Below, piece by piece: positions 1,285 through 7,028 of a stretch of DNA of 11,699 nucleotides. Below the pieces are notes generated by a model. The model worked only from the letters and a program-made list of their open reading frames with translations. It was not told where the DNA came from and did not search any database. The first letter of the stretch is position 1; every line of letters starts with the position of its first letter. The position numbers and the translations under genes were made by a program. The stretch is from an uncultured Acidimicrobiales bacterium (GTDB lineage: Bacteria > Actinomycetota > Acidimicrobiia > Acidimicrobiales > Aldehydirespiratoraceae): NCBI GenBank assembly GCA_938091985.1, contig CALKOE010000255.1, forward strand, positions 1 through 11,699, in the 5' to 3' direction.

Positions 1285-1323
1285 CTCAGACAGTGCTGCT
1301 CAGACAGTGCTACTCAGACAGTG
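1285..1323. repeat. Three tandem copies of CTCAGACAGTG at 14-bp period
   Basis: Exact copies of the 11-mer start at 1285, 1299 and 1313, with three-base spacers CTG and CTA. The array fills the gap between two convergent genes. Its third copy forms the last codons and stop of the metallo-hydrolase gene. Each copy carries TCA, which is TGA on the complement. Because the period is 14, the three TGAs fall in all three minus-strand frames. There is no strong hairpin or T-tract, so I do not call it a terminator. Confidence 0.8.
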
Positions 1324-2144
1324 ACAGTGGTGAGGTCGTCTCCCATGACGATCTCACCGTCGAAGTGCTCCGCCGCGATCGCGATCCACTCGTCGTATTG
1401 CTCGGGCTGTGGCGCCGGCACGTAGTGGGTCATCAGCAGCGTTGTGACGCCGTTGTTCGCTGCCGTCTGTGCGGCCTGCTCGACGCTCGAGTGGTAGTCG
1501 AGAATGTCCTGCAGGCGCTGGACAGGCACGAGCTTGACGAGGTCATCACGGATCACGGTTTGCACGTAGACATCGGCATCGGTCGTGAGTTCGTCGAGTC
1601 CGGCACACGGAATGGTGTCGCCCGCAAGAGCCACCACCTTTCCTTCGCGCTCGACCCGGAAACCGATCGTCGGCTCAACCGGAGCATGCATGGTCTGGTG
1701 CATCGAGACACTCATCGTGCCCAGCGTGAACGTATCGCCGGGTGAGACTTCAGTGACCTCGACGATCGGTTCCCAGGTGAGATCGTCGTGGTGGCCGATG
1801 CGGTATCCGACGTCGGGTTCGAGCGCCTTCATCATGTAGTCGACGTAGCGCTGGAGGCCGGGCGGACCCCACACCTTCAGCGGAGTCGGTTGTTGGGACA
1901 TGATCCAGTGAGTGGTCACGATGTCGCTGAAGTCGGTGAGGTGGTCGCTGTGCAGATGGGTGATCAACACGCCCTGGAGCAGACCAGGAAGCGAACCCGC
2001 TGCGGCCATGCGCATCACGCAACCGCGCCCCGTGTCGACCAGCACCTGTTCGAGGCCGCCTTCGCCGGCCTTCAGCAGTGTTGCCGGGCCGGCTCGGTTG
2101 GGATCGGGCATCGGCGAACCGGTGCCGAGGAGGACGACGTCCAT
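1314..2144 (-). CDS. Metallo-beta-lactamase-fold hydrolase, RNase Z/arylsulfatase-like group
   Basis: The 276-residue protein opens with the RNase Z-like strand LLGTGSPMPDPNRAGP and carries the metal-binding set expected for a two-zinc site: THLHSDH (His63, His65, Asp67, His68), His153, Asp176 in LAGDT, and His240 in LMTHYVP. DYHSSVEQAA around His218 matches the HSxxEQAA motif of RNase Z and related hydrolases. It lacks the long flexible arm of genuine tRNase Z, so a small-molecule ester or sulfate hydrolase is more likely than a tRNA processing enzyme. It is the last gene of the minus-strand block. AGGAG overlapping the TetR stop codon, eight bases before the ATG, supports the start and co-translation with the regulator. 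No signal peptide is seen, so it is probably cytoplasmic. Confidence 0.88.
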   Translation of the reverse strand: MDVVLLGTGSPMPDPNRAGPATLLKAGEGGLEQVLVDTGRGCVMRMAAAGSLPGLLQGVLITHLHSDHLTDFSDIVTTHWIMSQQPTPLKVWGPPGLQRYVDYMMKALEPDVGYRIGHHDDLTWEPIVEVTEVSPGDTFTLGTMSVSMHQTMHAPVEPTIGFRVEREGKVVALAGDTIPCAGLDELTTDADVYVQTVIRDDLVKLVPVQRLQDILDYHSSVEQAAQTAANNGVTTLLMTHYVPAPQPEQYDEWIAIAAEHFDGEIVMGDDLTTVTV

Positions 2145-2155
2145 CGTATGAGCTC

Positions 2156-2770
2156 CTAGCTCTGGGTTTCGGGACTGAGCAGCGCGAACACGGTGGATCG
2201 CATTACTGCAGTCGACTGATCGCGACTCAGCTGGCGGACCTGTCGGAGGTACTCGATCGAGTCGAGCGAGAGGCTGAGCGCCAGTGCCTCTTCCGCTGCG
2301 CGCCGGGGGCCGCTCTCGAGCCGCGCCAACTCAGGCGCAAAGTGTTGTGAGATCTGGTCGACCGCGCGAGCTGCGATATCGCGCCGGTGCGCAGCAATGA
2401 TCGGCTCCACCGGTGCGAGCATTTGCCCCACTCGCGAAGGGTTCTGCGCCACGTCGTAGATCGCCTGACGGTTCTCGATGATCGCGTCGACCCGGTCCCC
2501 GAACGGCCCTTCGCCGATCGCCGAGATCAGTAGATGATCGAGCATCGAGCGAAGTTGCCGCTCGATCGCCACCCGATAGAGCTCGTCGAGATCCTCGAAG
2601 TAGCGAAAGACGCTCCGGTGAGAGACTCCACTGCGCTCCGCGACCTCAGCCACGGCTGGTTGGAGGTTTCCGTCCCGGTAGATCTCCAGGAGCGCGTCGA
2701 CAACCCGGTCGCGATTCTGGTCGCGCCGAGCTCGACGCCCGTCGATCGTGGGCAGCATTTCGGCGTTCAT
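2156..2770 (-). CDS. TetR/AcrR-family transcriptional regulator
   Basis: This is a 204-residue protein, the usual TetR length. The N-terminal DNA-binding domain is clear: RRDQNRDRVVDALLEIYRDG, then the helix-turn-helix in VAEVAERSGVSHRSVFRYF (about residues 33-52), with the SVFRYF recognition helix end typical of the family. The remaining helical part is the variable ligand and dimer domain and gives no clue to the inducer. The frame is open to 3079, but the longer version would run through the upstream selenoprotein gene. The ATG at 2768-2770 puts the family's N-terminal arm right before helix 1 and starts ten bases after the upstream stop. It lacks a strong ribosome binding site, so translation may be coupled. 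Its neighbours suggest it controls the selenoprotein and metallo-hydrolase genes, and possibly the palindrome at 3971-3987. Confidence 0.9.
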   Translation of the reverse strand: MNAEMLPTIDGRRARRDQNRDRVVDALLEIYRDGNLQPAVAEVAERSGVSHRSVFRYFEDLDELYRVAIERQLRSMLDHLLISAIGEGPFGDRVDAIIENRQAIYDVAQNPSRVGQMLAPVEPIIAAHRRDIAARAVDQISQHFAPELARLESGPRRAAEEALALSLSLDSIEYLRQVRQLSRDQSTAVMRSTVFALLSPETQS

Positions 2771-2780
2771 CGCAGTCGAA

Positions 2781-3935
2781 TCATCGGTGTCCGGGCGCCA
2801 TGTAGAACCAGAACGGGAATGGCACGCCCTCGTCGGCCAGCGCCTTACGGGCGGCGAGCACCACCTTGCCGGCCTCTGTCTCTTCGAAGAACCAGTTCTC
2901 GATGGCACGACCGCTGCCCAGCGGTCCGTTGGCCAACTCGACGGCAGCCTCTTCGTAGTAGGTCCGCACGTCGTGGCAGACCGCCACCGTGTTCTTGCCG
3001 GGGAGGTCGGCCTCCTTGAGCGGGGTGCCGGCAGCCACGCGTTCGAGAGCCTCGATCGCTGCGGGAACGGTGTCGGCATCGATCGCTCGCCCGACGGAGC
3101 TCACACCCCGTCGCTCGACAATGCGGTCGTAGGCCTTGCGGATGCCGCGGGCTTCGGAAACGGCTGGAGACGCATCGCCATCGAAGGCGGGAGGCATCTG
3201 GCACGACACCGCGTCGGAGGCCTCTTCGATGACCACGGGGTGGCTCTCGATCACCGGACCCGACGTCGCATCAAGCAGAGCGAACGCGCGACCGATCACG
3301 TCGTGTTGGAACTCCGGATCGCTGGGTCGGCCGAGCGGCCGGCCGAGCGGGAATTCTCCGTGAAGGGTGCGCGGCGCGCCGACGAGCTCGGCAACGGGTC
3401 GCATCGACGCGAGGGCCACAGTGGCGATCCCGGCAGCTTCGATGATGTGAGCGAGCACACACACGGTGCGCGTACAAAGAGGTCAAACGGGCGTGAGCAG
3501 CACCACATCGACGCCGTCGGCCTTGAGCTCGGCCGCAGCCGCCGGGCCGGAGTCGTGGATGATCGTGGCGAGGTCGTCGGGCTGGTTGCCGGCAAAGGAG
3601 TAGTGCCGGTCGGCGACCGAGCCGATCACGCGCTGTGTGGCGAGCTCCTCGAGCCGGTCGATCGGAAAGACGACGTTGAGATCCTCGGTGAACCCAGCGC
3701 GATCGAAGTTCGGGCTCCAATGGCCGAGTACCAGGTCGCGCGCCTCGCGAGGAATCGATCGATAGCTCGTGTCGTTCTGGGCAAACGCGGTGTCGCTCGC
3801 ACGATGGAGCGCGGCCGACGTGACAATCGCGACCTTTGCCTGGGCGAGCGGCACGGGGGTGACGAACGCAGGATTCGGGAACTCAGGCGCGGGCAGGCTC
3901 CCTGCATGAGAACGCATCGGGGCATCACCAGACAT
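2781..3935 (-). CDS. GrdB-like selenoprotein (glycine/sarcosine/betaine reductase selenoprotein B family) with in-frame UGA
   Basis: Read through one TGA, this gene encodes 384 residues. Residues 1-150 show family features: VAIVTSAALH near the start, DLNVVFPIDRLEELA, VIGSVADRHYSFAG, then the strand ADGVDVVLLTPV. Codon 151 is TGA, followed by PLC, giving a UxxC redox motif where GrdB proteins have selenocysteine and many homologues have Cys. The same frame continues with VCVLAHIIEAAGIATV, GEFPLGRPLGRPSDP (about 197-211) and a C-terminal end FPFWFYMAPGHR, as in family members. AGGAGG four bases before the ATG at 3933-3935 sets the start. GrdB proteins attack substrate amines in Clostridia, but here GrdA, GrdC/D and GrdE are absent, and actinobacterial relatives have no known function. 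It follows the hydratase gene after 74 bases and precedes TetR by ten. The alternative is a nonsense mutation of an ancestral Cys codon; the intact downstream frame and the hairpin make this less likely. A caller that stops at TGA would report two fragments, 3483-3935 and 2781-3464. Confidence 0.83.
3455..3471 (-). promoter_or_regulatory. Candidate bacterial SECIS hairpin
   Basis: Eleven bases after the in-frame TGA the mRNA can fold GCGCAC / CGTGT / GTGTGC: a six-pair stem with one G-U pair and a five-base loop. The second loop base is G (position 3464), 19 bases past the TGA. This fits the known bacterial SECIS layout (short upper stem, small loop with G in the first two bases, loop 16-37 bases from UGA), which recruits SelB carrying selenocysteyl-tRNA. 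The fold was made by eye without energies, and short GC-rich hairpins are common, so it supports the recoding call but does not prove it. Confidence 0.6.
3483..3485 (-). other. Predicted selenocysteine codon (UGA, residue 151)
   Basis: The TGA sits between LLTPV and PLCTRTVC in one continuous frame. UGA is a normal stop elsewhere here: the ligase, metallo-hydrolase, transporter and glycosylase genes all end in it, so this is local recoding and not a changed genetic code. A Cys in place of U would give the common CxxC form of the family. Confidence 0.8.
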
Positions 3936-3939
3936 CAGG

Positions 3940-3945
3940 CCTCCT
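3940..3945 (-). promoter_or_regulatory. Strong ribosome binding site for the selenoprotein gene
   Basis: AGGAGG on the complement lies four bases before the ATG at 3933-3935. It favours this start over the second ATG six codons further in. Confidence 0.65.
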
Positions 3946-4009: not shown

Positions 4010-4777
4010 CTACTTCTGGGCCGAACCACGAGCCTGAATGGCTTCGCGGCTTGCGGCAAGACGCTCCGTGTCGAATCCGCCCGATTCCGACCAGCGCCGG
4101 TTGACTTCCTTCTCCACGAGCATCGCATCGCCAGCGGTCACGGCGTGGGTTGCCCAATAGAGCCGCTTCATCGCAGCTGAGGCCGCCGCTGGCACCGTCG
4201 CCATGTCGCGGCCGAGCGCACACGCGCGCGCGATCAGATCGCCATGCGGCACGACCTCGTTCACCAGTCCCCATTGCAGCGCTTGGTCGGCGTGGACATA
4301 GTTGCCGGTGAAGCTCATCTGACGCGCCCGGCGAACACCGATCGCTCGAGGCAACTCCACCGAGAGGCCCCAGCCCGGCAGAATGCCAACACGAGCGTGG
4401 GTGTCGGCGAACGACCCTCGATCCGAGGCGATCAGCAAGTCGCAGGCCAGCGCGATCTCGAGTCCGCCGGTGACCGCAGGTCCGTTGATCGCACCGATCA
4501 CCGGCGTCGCCATGTCGGGTGGGAATGGGTGACCGTCGCCGACCCCTGAGGAGATGCTGGCGCCAGAAGCGAGCTCCTTGAGATCGAGGCCGGCGCAGAA
4601 AGCGGGATCGGCGCCGGTGAGGACGATCGCCCGCACATCGTCACGTTCGTCCAGCGACGCAAGCGAGGCACGAAGTCCGCCGAGAAGCAACGAATTCAGA
4701 GCGTTACGACTGTCAGGCCGGTTCATCACGACCAGCGCAACCTCGTCTTCGACCTCGATGTGCAGCACGTCGTCCAT
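4010..4777 (-). CDS. Enoyl-CoA hydratase/isomerase (crotonase) family protein
   Basis: The 255-residue protein is full length for a crotonase. It has NRPDSRNALN near the start, the oxyanion-hole segments AFCAGLDL (59-66) and GPAVTGGLEIALACD (99-113), and the GILPGWGLS segment (131-139). Glu107 matches the first catalytic Glu of classical enoyl-CoA hydratases. The position of the second catalytic Glu is His127 in FADTHARVG, so water addition by the textbook two-Glu mechanism is doubtful. Isomerase, hydrolase or another CoA-ester reaction is possible; a FADTHARxG motif is, as far as I recall, frequent in actinobacterial paralogues. It starts 12 bases after the HAD gene and is followed by a 74-base gap with a candidate promoter. 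No clear ribosome binding site precedes the ATG. Confidence 0.88.
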   Translation of the reverse strand: MDDVLHIEVEDEVALVVMNRPDSRNALNSLLLGGLRASLASLDERDDVRAIVLTGADPAFCAGLDLKELASGASISSGVGDGHPFPPDMATPVIGAINGPAVTGGLEIALACDLLIASDRGSFADTHARVGILPGWGLSVELPRAIGVRRARQMSFTGNYVHADQALQWGLVNEVVPHGDLIARACALGRDMATVPAAASAAMKRLYWATHAVTAGDAMLVEKEVNRRWSESGGFDTERLAASREAIQARGSAQK

Positions 4778-4789
4778 AGACGAGCGAGG

Positions 4790-5413
4790 CTACGACCCAG
4801 GCGGGCGGAGGTCGAGACCGAGCGCGGTCAGTTCACTTCGACACTGAGCCGGCGAGACGAAGTGGACGGTCTCGAAACCCAACGCCGCGGCCGCAACGAC
4901 GTTGGCCTCGCTGTCGTCGATGAAGACCGCCGACTCCGGCTGCGTGCCATGACGGTCACACAGGAGGCGAAATATGGCCGGATCCGGCTTCACCACACCC
5001 TCGCGACCGCTGATCACGAGCGCATCGAAATGACGGAGAAACGGAAGGTGGGGCTCGGACTGAGCGAAGGTCTCGCGACCCCAGTTGCTCAGCGCGAACA
5101 GCGCCAACGGCTGAGCCCGCAACTCCTCGAGAATGGCGACGGAGTCGTGAAGGATGTCGCCGAGTGTCTCGGGCCATCGATCACGAAACGCCTCGATCAA
5201 CTTCCGATCGTCGGGATGGCGATCGGCGAGCGCCGCCGTCACGTCGTGCAAGGAGACCCCGCGGTCCAGGTCGGCGTTGATCTCGAGAGTGAGGACCTCG
5301 TCGAGAAATCGGTCGAGTTCGGCCTCGTCATCGATCAACTTCTCGTAGAGGAGTCGCCGGTCCCATTTGACGAGAACATTTCCGAGATCAAAGACGACAG
5401 TGTCGATCGGCAC
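4790..5413 (-). CDS. HAD-superfamily hydrolase (subfamily IA)
   Basis: All four HAD motifs are present in 207 residues: VVFDLGNVL with nucleophile Asp9, FALSNWG with Ser109, Lys142 in GVVKPDP, and FIDDSEANV with Asp166-Asp167. The cap lies between motifs I and II, as in type IA enzymes. The residue two after the nucleophile is Gly11, where phosphatases usually have the acid/base Asp. FDLGNV also occurs in YihX-type sugar phosphatases, so activity is not excluded, but the substrate is unknown. The start is GTG at 5411-5413, with no other start codon close by in frame and motif I beginning five residues later. No ribosome binding site is seen; see the leaderless promoter entry. It heads the minus-strand block. 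Confidence 0.87.
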   Translation of the reverse strand: MPIDTVVFDLGNVLVKWDRRLLYEKLIDDEAELDRFLDEVLTLEINADLDRGVSLHDVTAALADRHPDDRKLIEAFRDRWPETLGDILHDSVAILEELRAQPLALFALSNWGRETFAQSEPHLPFLRHFDALVISGREGVVKPDPAIFRLLCDRHGTQPESAVFIDDSEANVVAAAALGFETVHFVSPAQCRSELTALGLDLRPPGS

Positions 5414-5477: not shown

Positions 5478-7028
5478 TTGAAGAACAACATCGGCCTCTT
5501 CATCACGAAGCGGGCCCAACTCACACCCAACATCGACGCAGTGGTCGACGTGGCCTCAGGCCGTCGTCAGAACTATGTGGAGCTCAATCAGCGCTGCAAC
5601 CGGGTCGCCAACTCGTTGGCCGATGCCGGTCTCGAGCTCGGCGACCGGGTGGCGACGCTGCTCATGAACGGTCCGGAGTTCGTGGAGACCTTCTTCGGTA
5701 CCGCCAAGGCCGGCGGCGTCATCGTTGCGCTCAACTGGCGCCTGGTCGCCGATGAGCTGTCGTTCATCCTCACCGATTCGGGCTCGACCACGCTCGTCTT
5801 CGGTACCGCCTTCAACGATGTGGTCACCGAGCTCCAGTCGCGAGGCACCGACGGCACCCAGGTGACCAACTGGATCCACGTGGGCGACGCCGCCGACCGC
5901 CCATCGTTCGCGGTCGGCTACGAAGACATGCTCGCCGGCGTGGGCGACACCGAGCCTGAGATCGTGGCGTGCGACGACGACCTGCTCTTCATCATGTACA
6001 CCTCGGGCACCACCGGGCTGCCCAAGGGCGTGATGCATTCCCACCTCACGGCGCTGTGGTCGGTCATCACCGGCAACACCACGGCCGACGTGCGCTACGC
6101 CGACCGCTACCTGATCTGTCTGCCGCTCTTCCACGTCGGCGCCCTCAACCCGCTGCTCAGCACCTTCCAGAAGGGTGGCAGCGCGATCATCATGGCCGAG
6201 TTCGACCCGGTGAAGATCTGGGAGGTGTTCGCCGAGGAGCGCATCACAGTCACCCTCGCGGTGCCGGCGATGCTCAACTTCATGCTGCTCACCTACGACA
6301 AGGAAAACCACGACATTTCCTCACTGCGGTGGGTCATGTCGGGCGCCGCGCCCGTCCCGGTCTCGCTCATCGAGACCTACGCGGCGATGGGTATCGAGAT
6401 CCATCAGGTCTACGGACTCACCGAGACCTGCGGACCGGGCTGCCTCATCTCGCCCGACGACGCACTCGTGCGGGCCGGTTCGACCGGCAAGGCGTTCTTC
6501 CACACCGAGGTTCGAGTGGTCGACGAGCAGGGCAACGACTGCGGCTCCGAGGAGTCAGGCGAAGTCCTGATCCGCGGCCCCCACATCATGCTCGGCTACT
6601 GGAACCGTCCCGAGGCGACCGCCGAGGCGATCGATGCCGACGGATGGTTGAAGACCGGCGACATCGCACTGCTGGATGCCGACGGATTCGTCTACATCCA
6701 GGATCGCCTGAAGGACATGATCATCTCGGGTGGCGAAAACGTCTACCCCGCCGAGATCGAGAACGTGATCATGTCGATGGACGGAGTCACCGAGGCCGCC
6801 GTGATCGGTGTGCCCAGCGACAAGTGGGGCGAGTCGCCGCTCGCGATCGTGGTGAAGTCAGACGACGACATCACTGCGCAACAGATCCTCGAGTACTGCG
6901 ACGGCAAGCTCGCCCGCTTCAAGTTGCCGCGCCTCGTGGAGTTCACCGACGTCATCCCCCGCAACCCGACCGGCAAGGTGCTCAAGCGCGTGCTTCGCGA
7001 TGAGTACAAGGAGACCACGACCCAGTGA
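5478..7028 (+). CDS. Acyl-CoA synthetase / fatty-acid-CoA ligase (AMP-binding, FadD-type)
   Basis: This 516-residue adenylate-forming enzyme activates a carboxylic acid to its acyl-AMP and then to the CoA thioester. It shows the ATP loop YTSGTTGLPKG (174-184), the YGLTE motif (312-316), TGD with Asp395, the hinge region DRLKDMIISGGENVYPAEIE (409-428) and the catalytic Lys500 in NPTGK. Length and motif order are complete. It resembles FadD-type ligases of medium or long-chain, aromatic or steroid side-chain acids; the acid is not evident. The start is a TTG with GGAG six bases before it, and KNNIGLFITKRAQLTP is a normal N-terminus. It is the first gene of a three-gene operon and overlaps the next by four bases (GTGA), so the two are likely translated together. 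Confidence 0.92.
   Translation: MKNNIGLFITKRAQLTPNIDAVVDVASGRRQNYVELNQRCNRVANSLADAGLELGDRVATLLMNGPEFVETFFGTAKAGGVIVALNWRLVADELSFILTDSGSTTLVFGTAFNDVVTELQSRGTDGTQVTNWIHVGDAADRPSFAVGYEDMLAGVGDTEPEIVACDDDLLFIMYTSGTTGLPKGVMHSHLTALWSVITGNTTADVRYADRYLICLPLFHVGALNPLLSTFQKGGSAIIMAEFDPVKIWEVFAEERITVTLAVPAMLNFMLLTYDKENHDISSLRWVMSGAAPVPVSLIETYAAMGIEIHQVYGLTETCGPGCLISPDDALVRAGSTGKAFFHTEVRVVDEQGNDCGSEESGEVLIRGPHIMLGYWNRPEATAEAIDADGWLKTGDIALLDADGFVYIQDRLKDMIISGGENVYPAEIENVIMSMDGVTEAAVIGVPSDKWGESPLAIVVKSDDDITAQQILEYCDGKLARFKLPRLVEFTDVIPRNPTGKVLKRVLRDEYKETTTQ

Follow-up and report, generated by a model that had tools for sequence, protein, structure and literature searches.

A long PrdB-like protein with a predicted selenocysteine in an uncultured Acidimicrobiales bacterium

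A gene interrupted by a single in-frame TGA (positions 3483-3485, minus strand) was identified at 2781-3935 (minus strand) of the window, the whole stretch of 11,699 nucleotides analysed here. Its read-through translation is a protein of 384 residues containing U151-P-L-C154, which is very probably a selenocysteine (Sec)-decoded, long PrdB-like protein. This reading is drawn from sequence comparison: UGA codon 151 and a hairpin downstream of it have been kept by selection, in a lineage possessing the Sec machinery. Within the GrdB/PrdB superfamily, the protein belongs to the PrdB branch as a long form, with a predicted alpha/beta Sec domain (approximately residues 28-237) and a helical C-terminal domain.

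The interrupted gene and its relatives

The features of the gene are as follows.

3940..3945 (-): Shine-Dalgarno sequence AGGAGG of the selenoprotein gene, read directly, 4 bases before the ATG at 3935
3486..3935 (-): N-terminal segment, residues 1-150 (PF07355, E 1.1e-7; TIGR04483, E 9.5e-24)
3483..3485 (-): in-frame UGA, predicted Sec151 of U-P-L-C (TGA in 80/80 nearest GTDB loci, and in 61/61 aligned loci that were mostly preselected for it)
2784..3482 (-): C-terminal segment, residues 152-384 (matches TIGR04483 alone, E 2.6e-8)
3451..3475 (-): SECIS-like hairpin (alignment-level evidence)
2784..3203 (-): additional C-terminal domain made up entirely of helices, residues 245-384 (not covered by the PrdB profile of 238 positions)
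2781..2783 (-): TGA that ends the gene (read from sequence)

When the window was re-read, the coordinates, strand, TGA position, U151 and 384-residue product given in the first-pass annotation proved exact, and the motifs DLNVVFPIDRL, HYSFAG, U-P-L-C and FPLGRPLGRP were present as it had claimed. Its proposal that the split gene encodes one protein was borne out by TIGR04483 (PrdB), which gives a single match across the UGA (residues 18-218, 134.9 bits, E 2.9e-39) and also matches each half separately (84.1 bits for the N-terminal and 33.6 bits for the C-terminal half).

A search of the order sampled 198 genomes, 77 of which had a match, giving 150 match rows. An in-frame TGA was found in 139/150 rows, TAA or TAG in 0/150, and 11/150 were stop-free. 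Five of the stop-free rows extend over residue 151, where they read TGC or TGT (short paralogues from within the order), five end short of residue 151 and one (genome G188) starts there in a shifted frame; in this genome the TGA-form copy (L206) is apparently broken by a frame change, its other piece bearing the TGA. Codon-level alignment placed a TGA opposite U151 in 61/61 loci, a count that confirms only the position because 60 of the 61 were chosen from rows already containing a TGA. A GTDB scan was made without selection for TGA; it gave 390 candidate stretches, 372 of them relatives, and the best 80 of these 372 have TGA at the U151 site in 80/80 cases. Taken together with 42 long-form loci (the latter from TGA rows), TGA was found in 122/122 loci, 110 of them distinct. 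The long-form loci span 17 GTDB families, according to the GTDB labels of the order-search genomes, and the long form was counted in 41/198 sampled genomes of the order. Three genomes (G177, G069 and G024) hold 5-6 PrdB/GrdB-like match rows each, mostly TGA-bearing, an expansion of the family within the order. Six carriers (L132, L152, L163, L169, L177 and L179) are titled Bifidobacterium breve, Ferrithrix, Chloroflexota/Chloroflexi or Acidobacteria, with genes 60-65% identical to that of the window; either these bins are mislabelled or contaminated, or the gene has been transferred.

The protein homologue search listed 120 of 1104 matches, and the figures that follow rest on those 120. Seventy-five of them are halves that begin only downstream of the UGA, and the other 45 span the full length and are stop-free. 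The truncated annotation that had been anticipated for this protein is thus common among the matches listed, the post-UGA halves being mostly called 'hypothetical protein' where a name is given; in these records both the length and the redox motif are wrong. Among the 45 listed full-length, stop-free homologues, the residue at site 151 is C in 29, G in 13, A in 2 and S in 1, and C154 is kept in 45/45. The expected continuous alignment with U151 opposite Cys or Sec was therefore found, with TGA in the nearest loci and Cys in homologues and paralogues. An in-frame UGA conserved at the redox position, with Cys homologues in existence, is the pattern looked for in a selenoprotein, and the UGA is almost certainly read as Sec, as judged from these comparisons.

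Database gene calls, which yield a separate downstream protein of ~227 amino acids, would suit a real stop at this codon, whether through sequencing error, pseudogene formation or the presence of two separate proteins. The internal GTG at 3464 from which this 227-residue ORF starts, however, is without a Shine-Dalgarno sequence and sits within the hairpin, one profile continues from the first half into the second, none of the 150 order-search match rows has TAA or TAG, and the identical TGA occurs at the identical codon in all of the best 80 of 372 GTDB loci. A real stop is extremely unlikely, and sequencing error and pseudogene were rejected along with it, given the TGA in 80/80 loci and the single profile spanning both halves.

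The downstream hairpin and the selenocysteine machinery

Just 3' of the UGA, a hairpin was identified with a conserved 6-bp stem, pairing UGA+14 to +19 with +25 to +30 (U of UGA = 0), a 5-nt loop with a G, and two additional lower pairs. A G in a small apical loop is described as a criterion for bacterial SECIS elements in the excerpted text of an earlier survey (PMC1088965). Covariation was analysed in 43 long-form loci including the window (35 distinct rows), with 18 paralogues excluded. The stem pairs in 98.6% of cells, compared with 95.1% in shuffled alignments, and slid stem registers pair in 68.9% and 61.1%. At pair 18-28, the 35 distinct rows divide into 18 with C-G and 17 with U-A (in the 122 loci, C-G 70, U-A 51 and C-A 1). 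The covariation score was 0.235 against 0.163 shuffled, and 18 cells were changed on both sides against 6.4 shuffled, values reached in 0/500 shuffles for either measure; the number of additional pair types, 4, was not above that of the shuffles (5.0), so that one covariation measure stands at shuffle level. The change at pair 18-28 links a synonymous third-position exchange in an Arg codon (CGC/CGU) to an amino-acid exchange (Val or Ala/Thr), a coupling that would not be expected from protein constraint alone. RNAalifold recovered the identical stem unaided. Among 71 degenerate codon columns (L079 left out), variation is lowest at T155, V158 and T157, all within the hairpin element.

In single-sequence folding, the conserved stem is present in the lowest-energy structure of 28/43 loci, comprising 20/20 loci with U-A and 8/23 with C-G at pair 18-28. 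The other 15/43, the window included, prefer a different hairpin, that of the window being slid by two bases. Stability relative to synonymous recodings gave a z of -0.26 for the window, scarcely a gain in stability, and a mean z of -1.18 over 42 loci. A SECIS-like hairpin with a loop G just 3' of the UGA is therefore a feature of the alignment, not of the window's single fold.

The window belongs to a bin of 2.54 Mb in 507 contigs, 66% complete. The inferred high-GC actinobacterial host agrees with a GC content of 65% and with nearest relatives that are mostly Acidimicrobiia. The genes selA, selB and selD and that for tRNA-Sec had been suggested as a check on the reading, and the outcome was mixed for the bin itself. 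There, selB was identified (276 bits, above cut-off), with selA adjoining it and seemingly split across contigs C110 and C8. Neither tRNA-Sec nor a full selD was found in this 66%-complete bin, the four weak tRNA matches being Ser, Leu, Thr and Ser tRNAs and selD being represented by a 25-bit scrap at most; both are present in close relatives. Across the 26 genomes searched, the window's own included, tRNA-Sec was above cut-off in 22 and selD was found in 23. In 21 of these 23, selD itself contains a TGA (relatives including L112-L117). A selB above cut-off was found in 67/74 TGA-form genomes and in 41/124 others (p 4e-16, kinship ignored), matched genomes without TGA (G021, G061 and G172) being placed in the 'without' group. 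Six of the seven TGA-form genomes without selB over the cut-off are under 90% complete.

Decoding of the UGA as something other than Sec, through a TGA = Trp code or leaky read-through, would equally leave the frame open. Against this, TGA ends the gene itself and five other window ORFs that were checked, the homologues have Cys, Gly, Ala or Ser at the site (Trp in 0/45 examined), and a SECIS-like hairpin and selA/selB are present; such decoding is scarcely credible. An alternative genetic code was rejected on these grounds, and Sec remains the preferred reading of codon 151.

Relationship to proline and glycine reductases

The proposal of a Sec-containing member of the GrdB/PrdB superfamily is supported, with PF07355 (GRDB superfamily) matching the whole protein at 28.8 bits over residues 29-148, above its gathering score of 22. 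The 'GrdB-like' label of the first-pass annotation stands at superfamily level alone: the protein resembles PrdB more than GrdB, and the defining features tested for both reductases were not found. The UxxC motif of a GrdB-type Sec protein is likewise there, joined to an extra C-terminal domain beyond the PrdB profile that the label does not account for. PrdB, the D-proline reductase subunit, carries Sec in a UxxC motif according to a table in a recent review (PMC13188914), and its profile aligns over residues 18-218; the window protein differs in falling far under the TIGR04483 equivalog cut-off (134.9 against 300 bits), in possessing a C-terminal domain of ~140 additional residues, and in that PrdA was found in none of 25 carriers of window-type protein. 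With selenoprotein B of glycine, sarcosine and betaine reductase (GrdB/GrdF/GrdH) it has in common the PF07355 match and Sec in UxxC, but it matches just the later part of GrdB models, misses the TIGR01918 cut-off (55.8 against 65.45 bits), and its carriers have no detectable GrdE-type subunit.

An AlphaFold2 model, calculated with Cys at position 151 and 45 aligned rows, has a mean pLDDT of 93.9 and a pTM of 0.93. The predicted fold has an alpha/beta part followed by helices at the C-terminal end; the helical part is also predicted to fold alone (pLDDT 88.9). A Foldseek search of the PDB with the helical domain gave no match at E<=0.001.

The GrdE-type pyruvoyl subunit (PF09338) was found in 0/26 genomes, 25 of them carriers and some of them incomplete bins. 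The same profile matches 13/296 genomes of the phylum, which shows that the search is able to detect this subunit. PrdA (TIGR04480) was found in 0/25 carriers at E<=0.001, the window's own bin being 66% complete; TIGR04480 matches weakly in 5/7 PF09338-positive genomes, with no true PrdA genome as control. Because the cut-offs were missed and neither PF09338 nor PrdA was found in carriers, the window protein is probably not a Stickland reductase. That it could be a true PrdB of D-proline reductase, or a GrdB subunit of glycine, betaine or sarcosine reductase working with a pyruvoyl partner, is suggested by PrdB being its best profile, by the PF07355 score and by the UxxC motif; the missed cut-offs, the length of 384 residues with an additional domain, and the absence of PF09338 and PrdA from the genomes searched, with PF09338 detectable elsewhere in the phylum, make this very unlikely. 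Membership of either reductase was accordingly not accepted.

Reports of PrdB-type selenoproteins in surface seawater date back to 2005, and the long form is a variant of a known family. In the Sargasso Sea data of 2005, PrdB was the third most abundant known selenoprotein family with 42 genes (PMC1088965), and the Global Ocean Sampling analysis of 2008 counted 235 Sec and 110 Cys members of pfam07355 (PMC2398784), as stated in the excerpts of these papers. Both sets resemble the window protein in having Sec in UxxC and are abundant in ocean samples; the excerpts give no organism, length or partner for them. Sec in Actinobacteria is no news either, since the accessible part of a 2006 survey counts 12 selenoprotein families and 19 proteins there and calls the group selenoprotein-family-rich (PMC1794560), and a 2016 survey reports, in its excerpted text, Sec use by aerobic and anaerobic bacteria alike (PMC5029168). 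The review cited above, of 2026, gives GrdB and PrdB as UxxC selenoproteins, and its text has no word starting 'Actinomyc' or 'Actinobacter' (PMC13188914). The long Acidimicrobiia PrdB-type protein is not named in the accessible sections of the deep-Sep paper (PMC12013277), and no paper on this form was found in the open-access library searched. The long PrdB form is widespread yet overlooked.

Gene context, possible chemistry and site variants

On the minus strand, the gene order is HAD hydrolase, enoyl-CoA hydratase, selenoprotein, TetR regulator and metallo-beta-lactamase-fold (MBL) hydrolase. The neighbouring features are as follows.

5478..7028 (+): acyl-CoA ligase, divergent (NF004837 above cut-off; adjoins the gene in near relatives)
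4790..5413 (-): HAD-IA family hydrolase, upstream of the selenoprotein gene (TIGR01509 above cut-off)
4010..4777 (-): enoyl-CoA hydratase, upstream of the selenoprotein gene (NF004840 above cut-off)
2156..2770 (-): TetR-type regulator, directly downstream (weak NCBIfam regulator matches; downstream in near relatives)
1314..2144 (-): RNase Z-like MBL hydrolase (domain and profile matches)

The acyl-CoA-metabolism setting noted earlier is supported by the flanking NF004840 and NF004837 matches. Of the 122 loci (12 duplicates counted), 21 have a match to the window's hydratase no more than 5 kb away from the gene, 20 to its ligase, 18 to its TetR and 14 to its MBL hydrolase, and the context seen in the window belongs mainly to near relatives, not to the whole family. 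The RNase Z-like MBL hydrolase recurs near the selenoprotein gene in L050, L058, L059, L183 and L186. At 151-1281 of the window, on the opposite strand, a flavin monooxygenase/acyl-CoA dehydrogenase-like protein weakly similar to HsaA was identified.

Its likeliest role, though at somewhat less than even odds, is that of a stand-alone selenol reductase acting on a small electrophile, a mechanism put forward tentatively from sequence features. In the model, Sec151 occupies the turn that leads from strand 144-148 (GVDVVLLTPV-U) into helix 154-167; this helix starts with Cys154, and a selenol/thiol pair is therefore possible. SelB and Sec-tRNA would bind the hairpin, leading to insertion of Sec151. 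The selenolate of Sec151 would then attack an electrophilic carbon or heteroatom of the substrate, Cys154 would resolve the attacked intermediate as a selenenylsulfide, and a thioredoxin-type (dithiol) donor would return the Sec151/Cys154 pair to the reduced state. Because a pyruvoyl partner was not found in carriers, binding of the substrate as a Schiff base, as in glycine and proline reduction, probably does not occur. The best guess at substrate type is an organic-acid or xenobiotic catabolic one, for example with reductive removal of a leaving group, since the neighbours are a CoA ligase, an enoyl-CoA hydratase and a TetR regulator; it is highly doubtful that any particular substrate named at this point would be the right one.

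Precedents exist for parts of this scheme. It has been described, in the excerpted text, that a Se-C bond is broken during catalysis by glycine and proline reductase (PMC10298544). A GrdB-like selenoprotein has also been proposed to attack the C-F bond with no involvement of the pyruvoyl group, according to excerpts on the fluoroacetate reductase candidates FarB/FarE of Synergistota (PMC10838667). FarB resembles the window protein in being a GrdB-like selenoprotein for which pyruvoyl-free attack is proposed; it differs in working with the GrdE-like FarE, no GrdE-type gene having been found in carriers of window-type protein, and in being without a conserved CxxC, as described there.

Still more tentatively, the Acidimicrobiia may harbour GrdB/PrdB-fold selenoenzymes that are self-contained and make up a large clade so far unrecognised, in which Stickland-type selenol chemistry would have shifted from anaerobic amino-acid fermentation to (presumably oxic) organic-acid or xenobiotic catabolism. 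The pyruvoyl subunit would have been dropped and the helical domain gained, perhaps as its replacement, and one descendant clade would be Sec-free (Gly/Ala at 151) with the partner Cys kept. If the stand-alone reading is true, glycine and proline reductase would have in this protein a tractable relative that consists of one chain and needs no pyruvoyl partner; the protein might then also contribute to an explanation of why PrdB-type selenoproteins are so common in seawater data. Detoxification by a general oxidoreductase of thiol or peroxide type, as opposed to a substrate-specific catabolic reductase, would also be consistent with the UxxC motif and with diverse neighbourhoods containing GST, sulfatase, luciferase-like, SDR and TetR domains; many residues beyond the motif are strongly conserved, however, which suggests a defined pocket and leaves this general role unlikely.

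Variation at the two redox positions bears on the catalytic reductase proposed above. A quick maximum-likelihood tree was calculated with no bootstrap and with long branches flagged (Sec coded X, remaining letters at site 151 retained, L087 left out). The Gly/Ala homologues (13 G, 2 A; P0023, P0027, P0060 and 12 more) form a clade with 100% SH-aLRT, nested in a 38-row set holding 21 Sec forms (97% SH-aLRT), and label changes on the tree numbered 8 in total against 38.8 shuffled. Because the clade sits among Sec forms and C154 is kept, Sec was probably lost in it, as far as such a tree indicates. It may be that Cys154 is the essential residue and that Sec151 merely accelerates or protects it: C154 is present in 45/45 of the stop-free homologues listed, 16 of them without Cys or Sec at 151, and in the tree without bootstrap the Gly/Ala clade arises from within Sec forms. 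The Gly/Ala clade may, however, have switched function, and L094, L095 and L097 keep the UGA yet have Asp at the Cys position; an essential Cys154 with an auxiliary Sec is accordingly thought improbable. Since both the Gly/Ala clade and these UPLD paralogues exist, neither Sec151 nor Cys154 is universally needed, a reason not to assume a fixed Sec-Cys mechanism too readily. With C154 fixed and U, C, G, A or S occurring naturally at site 151, the family offers a ready test of the benefit of selenium to the enzyme. The Gly codon GGA is one base off TGA, the Gly/Ala clade being known here from protein sequences alone. The UPLD proteins are short PrdB-like paralogues (TGA at 7177 in L094, 7196 in L095 and 5229 in L097) and fall in three GTDB families.
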